From Bacillus marasmi (GTDB taxonomy: Bacteria > Bacillota > Bacilli > Bacillales > Cytobacillaceae): 64,000 nucleotides of DNA. The DNA is taken from positions 1 to 64,000 of the forward strand of contig NZ_LR656181.1 of assembly GCF_902168435.1 (NCBI RefSeq), given 5' to 3'. Positions 12,212 through 39,897 of this stretch are shown here, in pieces. The translations under genes were made by a program, and so were the position numbers. The first letter of the stretch is position 1. Every line of letters begins with the position of its first letter. The notes under the pieces are model-generated. The model was not told the DNA's origin and ran no database searches. It worked only from the letters and a program-made list of their open reading frames with translations.

Positions 12212-12344
12212 GATTAAAGGCGGCATTATCATACTATCACAATTGGTAATAGTAAAATAAAAAGGTAATCTTCAATTAAATATGTATAGTTAATCGATTA
12301 CTTGCTCTTTAAACTTTCCCTTTCCACGAGGAAGCTTAAAAAAT

Positions 12345-12525
12345 AAATAGGCAGGTCTCCTGACTTGCGTATCATCAGTTGGTTAATCCTTCCCTTGTTA
12401 AATAACAAAGTGGATCATCTTTAACCTTCCTACACGCATACAGTGGCGGGTCCGTGTTGGATTTGCACCAACTTCCCTCTTCGTCCTAATACTCATCATA
12501 TGAGAGTTATTAAGAAACCTATTCA
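12345..12525 (-). promoter_or_regulatory. Cobalamin (B12) riboswitch
   Basis: The minus strand carries the cobalamin aptamer core: GGGAA, then GGTGCAAATCC, then the B12 box with GACCCGCCACTGT around 12430-12475, and the closing element AAGTCAGGAGACCTGCCT at about 12350-12368. It precedes btuF-btuC-btuD/cbiZ on the same strand. Binding of adenosylcobalamin or another corrinoid should reduce expression of the uptake operon. About 130 nt separate the aptamer from the putative terminator. Confidence 0.93.
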
Positions 12526-12600
12526 TAAATATTCATTTTTTGTATTCTAAAAAATTATATTACACTCTTAACCAATTGTAAAATAAAAAAGGCGACAAAA

Positions 12601-14016: not shown

Positions 14017-15267
14017 CTATTCACTGCTTTCACTTGTCGCTGGTTTTCCTGTTTCAATCAGGACTTTGTCGATAGCTAAAAATACAGTGAGTATTACAAT
14101 GAGCAAGCCTGTTCCAATCAATAACCATTCAATATCAATCACATCAGCCATAGGACCAAACAACAGCATCCCTACTGGCATCATCGAGGTTGATATCATT
14201 CCAAATACCCCAAATATTCTTCCTAAATAGTTCTCATCAACAGATTCTTGCAACAGGACCATCGTTGGCGTGTTGAAAAACGGCATCGCAATTCCGAAAA
14301 TCGCCATTGGAATTAAATATATCCAAAATACAGGCACCATTCCTAGTGCAATCGTACATAATCCCATTATGAGACTTGAAAATGCCATCGTATGGATTTT
14401 ATTTTTAAATCCACCCCACGCTGCTATTAATCCTCCTCCAGCCATCATTCCAACTGAAAAAGCAATCTCAATCGCTGTTAATCGCCAAACATCATCGCCG
14501 AAACTACGAGTAACTTGAAGTGGAGTTAAAAACGCACCGGGAGCCAACAGTACAAAGAAGACTGCAAAAAACAGAAAGAATTTTTTCAAAAAATCATGTT
14601 CTTTTATATAAATGATGCCTTCCTTAAAATCGTTAAAATAACTTGTAGTTTGTTTTTCGGTTGCCTTTGTATGTACCGCTACCTTAACAAACAATAGAAA
14701 AATGAATATCCCAATGACCGCAGTTACTACATCGATAAAGAAAATGGTTTCAATCGTTGACACGGATAATAATGCCGCACTCACCATTGGCGCAACGAAC
14801 ATATTGACTGCTTGTAGAGATCCATTGATTCCATTTACTCTTGTAAGCTGTTCAGTCGGTACAATTTGCGGTAAAATTGCCCCTACTGCCGGGGTTTGAA
14901 TTCCAGTACCAACAGCACGAACGGCCGCCATCAGAAACAGCAACCAAACTGAATCATATCCCATTAAAAATAATATTGCTAAAATCAGTGTCGCCAAAGC
15001 AATCATACCATCTGATAACATAATCAATAATTTCCGGTTATATCGGTCAGCCCACACCCCGGCAACCGGCGATAACAGAAACGTAGGTATAAAGCCACAA
15101 ATAATAAACAAGGTCATCATAAGGCCTGATTCTGTCGTTAGCGTAACATGCCACATAATTGCATATTGAACCAGCGAAGTTCCAAATAGTGAAATGGTTT
15201 GGCTACTGAGGAAGAGAATGATATTCTTTTTCCAATTTTCCTTATGTTGTACATTTAAATTTGTCAT
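14017..15267 (-). CDS. MFS drug exporter (DHA3/Mef-like group)
   Basis: A 416-residue, twelve-segment major facilitator. The loop 2-3 motif is VAGVWADRYNRKLLIMLSDG, and the stretch VRAVGTGIQTPAVGAILPQIVPTEQLTRVNGINGS is typical of the DHA3 group that includes Mef macrolide pumps. The ATG at 15267 with GGAGAG seven nt upstream is preferred over the TTG five codons earlier. It is monocistronic and divergent from the YibE/F pair. No attenuator hairpin was found in its 5' region, unlike the related exporter at 38707. The substrate is unknown. Confidence 0.85.
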   Translation of the reverse strand: MTNLNVQHKENWKKNIILFLSSQTISLFGTSLVQYAIMWHVTLTTESGLMMTLFIICGFIPTFLLSPVAGVWADRYNRKLLIMLSDGMIALATLILAILFLMGYDSVWLLFLMAAVRAVGTGIQTPAVGAILPQIVPTEQLTRVNGINGSLQAVNMFVAPMVSAALLSVSTIETIFFIDVVTAVIGIFIFLLFVKVAVHTKATEKQTTSYFNDFKEGIIYIKEHDFLKKFFLFFAVFFVLLAPGAFLTPLQVTRSFGDDVWRLTAIEIAFSVGMMAGGGLIAAWGGFKNKIHTMAFSSLIMGLCTIALGMVPVFWIYLIPMAIFGIAMPFFNTPTMVLLQESVDENYLGRIFGVFGMISTSMMPVGMLLFGPMADVIDIEWLLIGTGLLIVILTVFLAIDKVLIETGKPATSESSE

Positions 15268-15526
15268 CGTATCACTCTCCAATCTGTTCCTAAATATATA
15301 TAACCAAATAATAAAACATCTGTTCTAGTTTAAGATAACTGATGTGGTATATCTATTCAAGTGTTGTGCTATTTGAATGATTGAACAAACCTAGTAATTA
15401 TGAAATAATGTGAAATTAATTGAACAAATAATGAAGGAAATGTTTTAAATTTGTATTGATTCCCTATCTAGTCTACTAAAAGCTTCAACACCATTACTTC
15501 AAGCTATGCCTATCGGAGGTTACTTT

Positions 15527-38317: not shown

Positions 38318-38346
38318 TTGACAGAATGAAAACGGCACAATATAAT
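38318..38346 (+). promoter_or_regulatory. Consensus sigma-A promoter of the Mef-like gene leader
   Basis: TTGACA (38318-38323), exactly 17 bases, then TATAAT (38341-38346). Transcription should start near 38353, about 350 nt before the exporter start codon. Confidence 0.85.
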
Positions 38347-38386
38347 AACCTAGTACTTTTTATTATTTTAGGAGGATTATTAAAAA

Positions 38387-38428
38387 ATGACACACTCGAT
38401 GAGATTACGTTTCCCTACTTTGAACTAG
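38387..38428 (+). CDS. ErmD-type leader peptide (macrolide-responsive)
   Basis: AGGAGG followed by ATG opens a 13-codon frame encoding MTHSMRLRFPTLN and a TAG. As I recall it, the leader peptide of ermD (B. licheniformis) begins with exactly this sequence. Its Arg-Leu-Arg motif makes macrolide- or ketolide-bound ribosomes stall, which induces the downstream methylase. Here the same peptide stands before an efflux gene with hairpins in between, so stalling should control read-through or translation of the exporter. Confidence 0.88.
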   Translation: MTHSMRLRFPTLN

Positions 38429-38448
38429 TAATTGAATATGTTCAAAGG

Positions 38449-38495
38449 CTCTGTTTGTATATACAGAGTAAACGGGATAGGTCTGTCCTTTTTTA
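38449..38495 (+). promoter_or_regulatory. First attenuator hairpins after the leader peptide
   Basis: CTCTGT/ACAGAG form one stem (38449-38468). GGATAG/CTGTCC followed by TTTTTT (about 38475-38495) form a weak terminator. They start only 20 nt beyond the leader stop, within reach of a stalled ribosome's influence. Confidence 0.6.
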
Positions 38496-38648
38496 ATAAT
38501 CTTCATTTTAATCAACACATAAAATGAATAGATTCGGATTTTAATACCTTTCTTATTTTTTGTGTAATTTCCCTTCTTTGACTTGGAGGGAAGTTTATTT
38601 GGTGATCTCTACCTTATAACACAAATCATTATGATCCCCTTACTCTCA

Positions 38649-38677
38649 ATCACAGACAAGCTGTCTGTGATTTTTTT
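38649..38677 (+). terminator. Attenuator terminator in the Mef-like leader
   Basis: ATCACAGACA pairs with TGTCTGTGAT across a three-base loop, followed by seven T. It lies only 30 nt before the exporter start, inside the same transcript as the leader peptide, so full-length mRNA requires antitermination. Confidence 0.85.
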
Positions 38678-38706
38678 ATTTTTCATTTAATTCGGAGGGA
38701 TTTATT

Positions 38707-39897
38707 ATGCTAAATAATAATTGGAAACGTAAATTTATAGCCATATATACAGGACAGTTCTTTTCATTACTTAGTAGTGCAGCTGTTCAATTTAGTATTA
38801 TTTGGTGGTTAACTGATACATCGGGCTCACCACTTGTATTAACACTTGCAGGACTCGCTGGCTTCTTACCGCAAGCATTGGTTGGTCCTATCGCTGGAAC
38901 ACTGACAGATCGATACTCTCGTAAAATGATGATGATTTTAGCAGATATGACTGTTGCTCTTGGCAGTATCCTATTGATTATTTCAATCTATTTTAGTGAA
39001 CCAAGTATTTCCCTAGTACTGCTTGTCCTAAGCATCCGATCACTTGCTACCGCTTTTCATATGCCAGCATTTCAAGCATCGATTCCATTGCTTGCGCCAG
39101 AAGAGTATCTTACAAACGTTGCTGGCTGGGGACAAACAGTGAGTTCGCTTTCTAATATTGCTGGACCAGCAGTTGGGTTATCTTTGCTGGCAGTTAGTTC
39201 ACTACAATGGGTGTTATTACTTGATGTTTTTGGAGCTGTAATAGCTAGTGGTGTATTACTATTTGTTCATATTCCGCGAGCACCAAAATCTAAAGAACAG
39301 CTAACTCACAACTTTTTTGCAGAAATGAAGGAAGGCTATCAGGCAATCGTAAAACATCCTGTCATCCTGAAGCTTACCATAACGATGACCGTTGTTGCGC
39401 TTTTATTCATTCCACTGGGAACGTACTTTCCACTCATTACACGTAACCATTTTGGAAAAGGTGTTGTAGAAGCAGGAATCGTTGAGATGGTCTTTGCGAT
39501 TGGTTTAATTGCAGGCGGTTCATTATTAGGAGTAATAGGGGAACGCTTTGAAAAAGTCAAAACAATGGCTGTTGGCATGTTGTTAATGGGAATCGCTTTA
39601 TTCATAACTGGATGGCTCCCCCATTCCCTATTTTATATATTTATTGTCTTAAGCGGATTAATTGGCTTGTCTGGACCTTTATTTTCAGCTCCATTCTATG
39701 CCTTTATTCAAACAGAGATACAACCACACCTACTTGGACGGGTATTTAGTTTTGTAACAAGCGTCTCATTACTGGCAACACCAATAGGTTACGCACTAGC
39801 TGGAATCATTATCGAATTTACTAGTGTTGCCTCATTATTTACGATAGCTGGTGGCTTTATTATTTTGAATGCAGTTATAACATTAAAAGTAAAATAG
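38707..39897 (+). CDS. Mef-like macrolide efflux MFS transporter
   Basis: A 396-residue, twelve-segment DHA3 transporter that follows Mef(A)/Mef(E): NNWKRKFIAIYTGQFFSLLSSA at the N-terminus (Mef has NNWKRKFYAIWAGQ), GPIAGTLTDRYSRKMMMILAD, IRSLATAFHMPAFQASIPLLAPEEYLTNVAGW and LLGRVFSFVTSVSLLATPIG. GGAGGG lies seven nt before the ATG. Mef pumps expel 14- and 15-membered macrolides and normally pair with the ABC-F protein Msr(D), which is absent here. The ErmD-type leader and attenuator upstream support macrolides as inducer and probable substrate. Confidence 0.87.
   Translation: MLNNNWKRKFIAIYTGQFFSLLSSAAVQFSIIWWLTDTSGSPLVLTLAGLAGFLPQALVGPIAGTLTDRYSRKMMMILADMTVALGSILLIISIYFSEPSISLVLLVLSIRSLATAFHMPAFQASIPLLAPEEYLTNVAGWGQTVSSLSNIAGPAVGLSLLAVSSLQWVLLLDVFGAVIASGVLLFVHIPRAPKSKEQLTHNFFAEMKEGYQAIVKHPVILKLTITMTVVALLFIPLGTYFPLITRNHFGKGVVEAGIVEMVFAIGLIAGGSLLGVIGERFEKVKTMAVGMLLMGIALFITGWLPHSLFYIFIVLSGLIGLSGPLFSAPFYAFIQTEIQPHLLGRVFSFVTSVSLLATPIGYALAGIIIEFTSVASLFTIAGGFIILNAVITLKVK

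Follow-up and report, generated by a model that had tools for sequence, protein, structure and literature searches.

A 64,000-nucleotide (nt) stretch of Bacillus marasmi DNA (contig NZ_LR656181.1; the whole stretch is called the window here) carries a Mef-like exporter gene whose 5′ region is, with a probability that we put at about 0.78, a member of one homologous family of macrolide-sensing transcription attenuators. Bacilli would use and exchange these attenuators in front of mechanistically unrelated macrolide-resistance genes, by the mechanism proposed below. The homology, the conserved motif of the leader peptide, the covariation of the default fold, the position-specific antiterminator pairing and the variety of downstream genes were computed here, and macrolide induction of the window copy is suggested by analogy. 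Within the family, the copy in the window is slightly degraded.

The 5′ region of the window gene was 91% identical to that of erm(D) (locus L053) over 144 nt and 83% identical over 42 nt at the terminator; judged by this homology, it is an erm(D)-type leader and attenuator, and the likeness is real and beyond chance. A covariance model of the element from the leader to the short hairpin T1, termed R1, was built from 25 sequences including the window, and the window core scored 165 bits with it (the best score among the loci searched was 171 bits; the window is a training sequence). The comparison with other mef-like loci that the first-pass annotation of this DNA had proposed was also carried out. 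Among 12 relatives of the mef gene from genome contigs (66–80% identical), 11 carried the element core and 10 an intact RLR-type leader, the exceptions being L006, with a leader that lacks RLR, and L010 from Streptococcus penaeicida, with no element. The mef relative L098 and erm(D) L053 shared 79% identity along 381 nt, which begin 50 nt ahead of the model start and run to the end of the terminator T3; with 300 nt of upstream and 900 nt of downstream sequence included in the comparison, no other similarity between them was found at E 1e-5. When a 150-nt query (window positions 38371–38520) was searched against 72,556 plasmid records, 22 matched (75–93% identical, best E 2e-50); there were no matches among 50,697 phage records. 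The genes in the 14 plasmid records that were opened comprised five mph, three mef-msr, two rRNA-methyltransferase-msr, two msr and one erm(D), with one record cut at its start, and public annotation names such resistance genes in 13 of the 14. Therefore, the erm(D) 5′ region itself, beyond the peptide, is common to several resistance mechanisms. The features of the window locus are as follows:

38318..38346, + strand, sigma-A-type promoter TTGACA-17-TATAAT (12 of 12 consensus positions; a promoter stands at the same alignment place in most aligned relatives)
38370..38375, + strand, leader ribosome binding site (RBS) AGGAGG (from sequence; GGAGG is invariant in 25 aligned elements)
38387..38428, + strand, leader peptide MTHSMRLRFPTLN of 13 codons, with the RLR arrest motif at codons 6–8 (reading frame; motif of the relatives; first 13 residues of ErmDL/ErmKL)
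38475..38494, + strand, T1-like short hairpin with U6, GGAUA / UGUCC (sequence, folds)
38566..38595, + strand, weak terminator-like hairpin (terminator scan)
38648..38672, + strand, strong intrinsic terminator T3, then T7 (sequence, terminator scan; kept in aligned relatives)
38694..38699, + strand, mef RBS (sequence)
38707..39897, + strand, Mef(F)-like MFS exporter gene of 396 amino acids, predicted macrolide pump (NCBIfam, Pfam, comparison with Mef(F))

The consensus promoter, the 13-codon leader behind its AGGAGG Shine-Dalgarno (SD) sequence, and the weak and strong terminators had all been read from the sequence in the first-pass annotation, and all were borne out; the T3 stem ends 34 nt ahead of the mef ATG. 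The promoter is the sole 12/12 match in the 2401 bases scanned, which contained 13 promoter-like sites (9.0 expected by shuffling) and four terminator-like sites (1.5 expected). The leader ATG lies at 38387, and the TAG stop codon (38426–38428) is immediately followed by TAA. Most leaders of the relatives are one codon longer (Q, K or R) and then end in TAA; in the window this codon is TAG. T1 was considered as a true terminator and dropped because its stem appears to be only 4–6 base pairs long, and it is treated as what the folds suggest it probably is, a part of the switch.

In the family, R1 matched 86 of the 193 genomes searched. At broader ranks, matches came from 129 of 397 sampled genomes for the order, 76 of 398 for the class and 11 of 398 for the phylum, seven of these last outside the class (the four samples overlap). 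Overlapping weaker matches, antisense echoes of ∼28–36 bits, were dropped (46 of 255 rows). A search with a leader pattern gave matches in 49 of 398 genomes, many of the listed matches not being leaders by eye, compared with eight genomes for the reversed pattern. Rfam does not appear to cover the element: cmscan of window positions 38340–38720 returned four matches up to E 5, all far below the gathering score (best E 1.3), and none at that score in L052, L053, L059 and L061. One pair of plasmid records that contains the element together with msr (L057, CP031730.1; also CP065518.1) is labelled Stenotrophomonas rhizophila, and the surrounding gene order is that of Lysinibacillus fusiformis (L058), which makes the label or assembly doubtful.

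The genes behind the element were classified for 209 copies, a non-random set of the mef-relative, pattern-search and plasmid loci and the top family and order hits plus 120 hits chosen by hand across the score range. A few places are present twice in the set, and loci of the class and phylum samples, 19 of which were looked at cursorily, are outside it. The class was assigned by blastp clustering of the first open frame that reached 120 amino acids within 900 nt (80 sufficed if it was cut by the contig end). By this rule, the first gene encodes a Mef-like pump in 52 cases, an Msr ABC-F protein in 40, an Mph kinase in 34, an RlmA-type methyltransferase (rmt) in 28, an HflX GTPase in 24 and an Erm methylase in 14. 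These six classes cover 192 of the 209 elements and form the set used below; the remainder precede short-chain dehydrogenase (SDR) genes (five), single genes of other kinds (four) or no gene within reach (eight). Among nine representatives compared with NCBIfam, Msr (758 bits, cut-off 680), Erm (249, cut-off 212) and HflX (454, cut-off 217) passed the curated thresholds. Mph (517, cut-off 612), RlmA-like (147, cut-off 303) and Mef-like representatives fell below them, and these three are therefore family-level names. Two kinds of gene outside the six classes deserve mention. LmrB-like DHA2 exporters follow the R1 matches at L229:301–429 (one of the four single genes; NCBIfam 523 bits, cut-off 800; leader MTLKRFRFTFFA) and, by eye, L256. 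In the genome of the window itself, a 57-bit match (G000 contig C29:229448–229563, L122) lies ahead of an SDR gene; this branch also includes L168, L173, L236 and L239 and has non-RLR leaders such as MIDILALNR, and an antiterminator-like pairing, assessed without a shuffle control, is present in L122, L168 and L173 and weak in L236 and L239.

Nearly identical cores precede different genes, with 99.3% identity for an msr/mph pair (L147 and L148), 98.6% for mef/msr (L092 and L093) and 97.8% for mph/mef (L056 and L012). Among the elements read, the best cross-class pairs of mef, msr, mph, rmt and erm cores were 93–100% identical in nucleotide sequence, and hflX elements were at best 73–82% identical to those of other classes. 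In L147/L148, similarity takes in the 300 nt upstream and reaches 27 nt into the called genes; it ceases ∼49 nt past the core in L092/L093, and stops at T3 in L056/L012, L098/L053 and L069/L053. Not every cross-class pair is a swap. In L077/L082 (msr/rmt, 100% identical cores), the similarity takes in 172 nt of rmt in L082, which makes loss of or damage to the first gene of L077 more likely than a swap, and in L113/L114 (msr/mph, 80%) it runs beyond T3 and beyond the called start of L113. A tree of the cores (138 columns, poorly resolved, with 19 of 175 inner branches starred) required 57 changes of gene label, compared with a minimum of 5 and a mean of 117.8 after shuffling; the labels are therefore clustered yet often reassigned, partly because operons have lost their first gene. 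The erm label was hardly clustered (12 changes versus a shuffled mean of 13.7). In one locus (L141), two elements stand in tandem on one contig (301–438 and 1580–1715), one before mph and the other before msr. The first-pass annotation had offered a choice between a cassette exchanged among resistance mechanisms and an ancestral Bacillaceae sensor used for several genes. Each holds in part, given the mef, msr, mph, rmt, hflX and erm genes downstream and the copies up to 99% identical, but the restriction to Bacillaceae does not hold, as the element is found beyond that family.

The first-pass annotation had listed the features of the 5′ region, and its alternative RNA structures are an addition to them. 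They are formed by these segments:

38371..38387, + strand, helix P0, 5′ strand, comprising the leader RBS and spacer (pairs with 38489–38504)
38489..38504, + strand, helix P0, 3′ strand, UUUUUUAAUAAUCUUC (family covariation)
38411..38416, + strand, leader codons 9–10 (UUCCCU), with a predicted default-fold pairing of their UCCC to GGGA at 38474–38477 (window fold)
38418..38425, + strand, strand a, CUUUGAAC (pairs with b′, 38440–38447)
38440..38447, + strand, strand b′, GUUCAAAG (pairs with strand a)
38449..38468, + strand, hairpin H, CUCUG / CAGAG (its strands are also used in the antiterminator)
38452..38478, + strand, antiterminator (AT), 5′ strand (duplex with 38634–38658)
38634..38658, + strand, AT, 3′ strand, overlapping the 5′ arm of T3 (duplex computation)

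Covariation in the family, counted over 178 different cores, is clear for the default fold, in which the leader is tied up. In P0, which is extended by GACA:UGUC, both bases had changed without loss of pairing in 203 alignment cells (20 pairs; shuffle maximum 87), and a second alignment run gave 189 such cells (19 pairs; shuffle maximum 83, slid partners 63–112). In helix a:b′, 8 of 11 pairs and 41 cells were changed on both sides (shuffle maximum 21, slid partners at most 29). For hairpin H, 97% of cells pair and 58 were changed on both sides (shuffle maxima 42 and 3 in two runs, slid partners at most 40).

We propose that without drug the leader would be translated and the ribosome released, after which the leader RNA would fold on itself: P0 over its own RBS, a with b′, leader codons with a downstream segment, and hairpin H. 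This default fold would let T3 form, and transcription would stop ahead of mef. A macrolide-bound ribosome stalled at the RLR codons would block the default fold and free hairpin H and the downstream segment; the freed segment could then pair with the stretch upstream of T3 and the 5′ arm of T3, forming the antiterminator, and RNA polymerase would read into mef.

The predicted AT joins the strand of H and the conserved CAGAGUAAACGGGAUnAGUCUGUCC to the sequence just ahead of T3 and to the T3 5′ arm; the window duplex has an energy of −21.0 kcal/mol (z −2.5, 19 pairs). The last terminator could be placed in 142 of the 192 elements (129 non-redundant), and the 50 elements without a T3 that satisfied the placement rules were dropped from the AT counts. 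In 115 of the 129 non-redundant elements, the AT duplex outscored no fewer than 59 of its 60 dinucleotide shuffles, with family mean z values of −3.2 to −6.3. Across 34 aligned pairs, 78.1% of cells were paired, compared with 43–52% for slid partners, and the fraction was 94% in rmt elements, 69% in hflX and 64% (the lowest) in mph. When strands were swapped between gene families, the own AT partner surpassed the average of 15 foreign partners in 125 of 192 elements (mef 33/52, msr 27/40, rmt 23/28, erm 9/14, mph 23/34 and hflX 10/24), a result that is only mildly informative because the sequences are conserved. An ensemble test was run on 124 elements (five of the 129 were dropped), with the transcript ending at the T3 5′ arm and the leader nucleotides masked as by a ribosome stalled at RLR. 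The mask raised the mean AT probability from 0.20 to 0.49 (0.20 for a control mask), and the probability fell in none of the elements.

A number of results weigh against this account. The window AT is weaker than the mef mean (−21.0 versus −29.6), and the 5′ arm of the conserved middle terminator T2 is, by eye, lost in the window. AT covariation is weak: the 78.1% of paired cells compares with a mean of 76.4% and a maximum of 77.1% after partner shuffling; 19 pairs and 76 cells were changed on both sides, with shuffle maxima of 17–18 and 70–71 and slid partners reaching 19 and 98; and 32.2% of changed cells still pair, relative to a shuffle mean of 31.0% and maximum of 32.4%. The UCCC:GGGA pairing, formed in 81% of cells in the family, shows no covariation above shuffles or slid partners. 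In the ensemble test, only 53 of the 124 elements gained more than 0.2 under the RLR mask, and a mask at the stop codon was as effective (0.48). Folding the leader in both states, a check suggested by the first-pass annotation, gave the window AT a probability of 0.00 when free and 0.02 with the stalled footprint, rising to 0.88 when the leader RBS was also occupied and so open. A completed T3 is favoured at equilibrium over the AT in all states of the window. Since the covariation is weak, the argument for the antiterminator draws more on conserved position-specific complementarity, the overlap with T3 and the hflXr precedent than on compensatory change. Because complete T3 always wins at equilibrium, the switch must act during transcription, as kinetic antitermination, and from the values of 0.02 and 0.88 the window copy needs P0 held open, which a stalled or queued ribosome would presumably do.

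The most credible alternative, though an unlikely one, is decay of the window copy into a passenger: an attenuator, either ancestral or newly acquired, that no longer switches and leaves mef off or weakly constitutive. The lost T2 arm, the AT below the family mean and the AT probability of 0.02 with the stalled footprint alone would fit it. So would the history of the gene: a close orthologue was found in one of five genomes of the genus, the best matches in the other four being 29–31% identical, and the window mef gene was therefore probably acquired. It is countered by the promoter, RBS, leader frame, RLR motif, H, P0 and T3, all of which are intact, and by a core score near the best among the loci searched, the window being in the training set.

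We give a smaller chance to the possibility that the leader acts chiefly by translation attenuation or messenger RNA protection and not by antitermination. Besides the weak antiterminator covariation, it can appeal to the tlrB leader, which joins transcription and translation attenuation (PMC6851288), and to a second tiny leader, M..LLF[YF] or similar, present between T3 and the gene in 26 of the 192 elements (10 mef and 16 msr; L001, L003, L005, L007, L009, L012 and 20 more), with examples MMMLLFY and MQFLLFF. It is mostly followed by a ATACGAGC...GCTCGTATCG hairpin, and next in the aligned mef loci comes a stretch complementary to the SD region of the gene; in some mef and msr relatives a hairpin could sequester the SD sequence. 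By eye, this arrangement looks like a stacked translation attenuator with a sensor similar to MsrDL (MYLIFM), the short, hydrophobic second leader of mefA/msrD. No second leader was found in the window, in which the mef RBS lies past T3, and complementarity between the freed segment and the strand ahead of T3 goes beyond shuffles in the 115 of 129 elements noted above; both speak for antitermination there. The S. penaeicida locus (L010:2880–3012) is a mef relative with only a second leader, MMTLLFY, and no RLR element was found in it.

Very improbable is convergence on a good arrest peptide without shared descent of the regulatory RNA, for which one could cite a Mef(A) gene with the leader MTASMRLR (L047) and no R1 match in its 5′ region, the absence of reported homology between the mef(E) and erm(K) regions in PMC4335068, and the more distant hflX elements; we rejected it for the Bacilli set because the whole 5′ region aligns, from ahead of the leader through T3, and the best pairs across the other five classes reach the identities given above. 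For the Mef(A)-type leaders themselves, convergence is likely.

The leaders themselves retain the arrest motif: [RK]x[RK] occurs in 186 of the 192 and RLR in 173, and the first R or K falls at position 6 in 125 leaders and at position 5 in 39. The N-terminal part is variable and the end (LN) conserved. For ErmDL, telithromycin and erythromycin alike cause arrest when the Leu7 codon occupies the P site, and an ermDL reporter in Escherichia coli was induced by erythromycin (PMC8298421). Conservation of LN although the arrest occurs earlier may be explained by its codons, which form strand a of the covarying RNA helix. According to the same source, RLR is critical in telithromycin arrest of ErmDL and dispensable in erythromycin arrest, so that the earlier statement that this motif stalls macrolide-bound ribosomes stands for the first drug and not for the second.

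Among known systems, erm(D)/erm(K) of Bacillus licheniformis is closest, with the leader MTHSMRLRFPTLN(Q), a terminator before the gene and, beyond the 144-nt match, sequence alignable from the SD sequence to T3; it differs in controlling a 23S rRNA methylase, and the window leader ends one codon sooner. In Streptococcus pneumoniae, the mef(E)L leader MTASMRLR controls mef by transcription attenuation, and the mef(E) and erm(K) 5′ regions were said to have nothing discernible in common beyond the leader (both from PMC4335068). This mef(E)/mel (Mega) system shares with the window a mef pump, an RLR leader, a consensus promoter and a terminator, but has an msr partner. The Mef(A) locus with the same leader (L047, 888 bits, cut-off 675) gave no R1 match at E 0.01. 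Directly behind its MTASMRLR start lies a 275-bit match to Rfam RF02862, 'Enterococcus sRNA 1300' (L047:1519–1749), and owing to this position the 'sRNA' is probably an attenuated mef/msr leader transcript. The hflXr/rli80 region of Listeria monocytogenes resembles the element in its described logic, a 14-residue RLR frame overlapping an anti-antiterminator and followed by an antiterminator and a terminator; the anti-antiterminator, antiterminator and start codon were tested there with mutants (PMC6310831). Its gene differs in encoding a ribosome-splitting GTPase; 24 HflX-type genes stand behind the element here. In Bacillus subtilis, tlrB (yxjB) has the RxR-type leader MIIQFIRYR, a terminator and sequestration of the leader RBS (PMC6851288), and RlmA-type genes are one of the classes found here; its leader has no residues past the arrest motif, tylosin is the drug to which it responds, and SD sequestration and NusG pausing come in addition. 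The annotated Mef(F) of Macrococcoides canis lies behind the same element and is 72% identical to the window protein over 397 amino acids, but is followed by msr(G).

That identity places the window pump in the Mef(F) group by homology. The nearest NCBIfam families are Mef(A), with a score of 304.2 bits that is below the cut-off of 675, and Mef(B), and the Pfam MFS_1 match scores 127.9 bits. As the first-pass annotation had stated, the gene thus encodes a Mef-family pump and not a methylase, and from its sequence the pump would export macrolides. The absence of an msr(D) partner was likewise upheld: both neighbours are on the opposite strand, a DUF1697 gene upstream and, where a Mega-type operon would have msr, a TPM-domain gene downstream, and nowhere in the genome does an Msr protein pass the cut-off of 680 bits (best score 339). 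Elsewhere in the window, a second MFS gene (14017–15282, − strand) encodes a protein 31% identical to the Mef-like one, and a cobalamin riboswitch scoring 122 bits lies at 12333–12537 (− strand).

In summary, mef(E)L is already a precedent for an RLR leader with attenuation ahead of mef (PMC4335068); what is new, from the alignments, is that the 5′ region in the window is homologous to that of erm(D), and the finding generalizes past the claim of the first-pass annotation. RLR-type attenuators of mef(E)L, hflXr and tlrB have been described one at a time (PMC4335068, PMC6310831, PMC6851288), and in the open-licence PMC literature, judged on titles, starts of abstracts and passages, no paper was found that treats them as one homologous family. 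More tentatively, the element may be a general exchangeable drug-sensing front end of Bacilli, from promoter to terminator, which seven or more unrelated resistance genes (mef, msr, mph, erm, rlmA-type, hflX and lmrB-like at L229) have recruited and exchanged. Non-RLR branches (SDR in this genome and at four other loci) might then sense another signal and point to an uncharacterized resistance or detoxification enzyme. The element looks like a portable control module and is a well-defined RNA whose competing folds are open to probing over dozens of natural variants, and R1 could serve as a search handle, with genes behind the element as resistance candidates. If it is one homologous module, drug sensing and resistance mechanism would evolve independently, and a resistance gene landing behind the element would inherit macrolide control.

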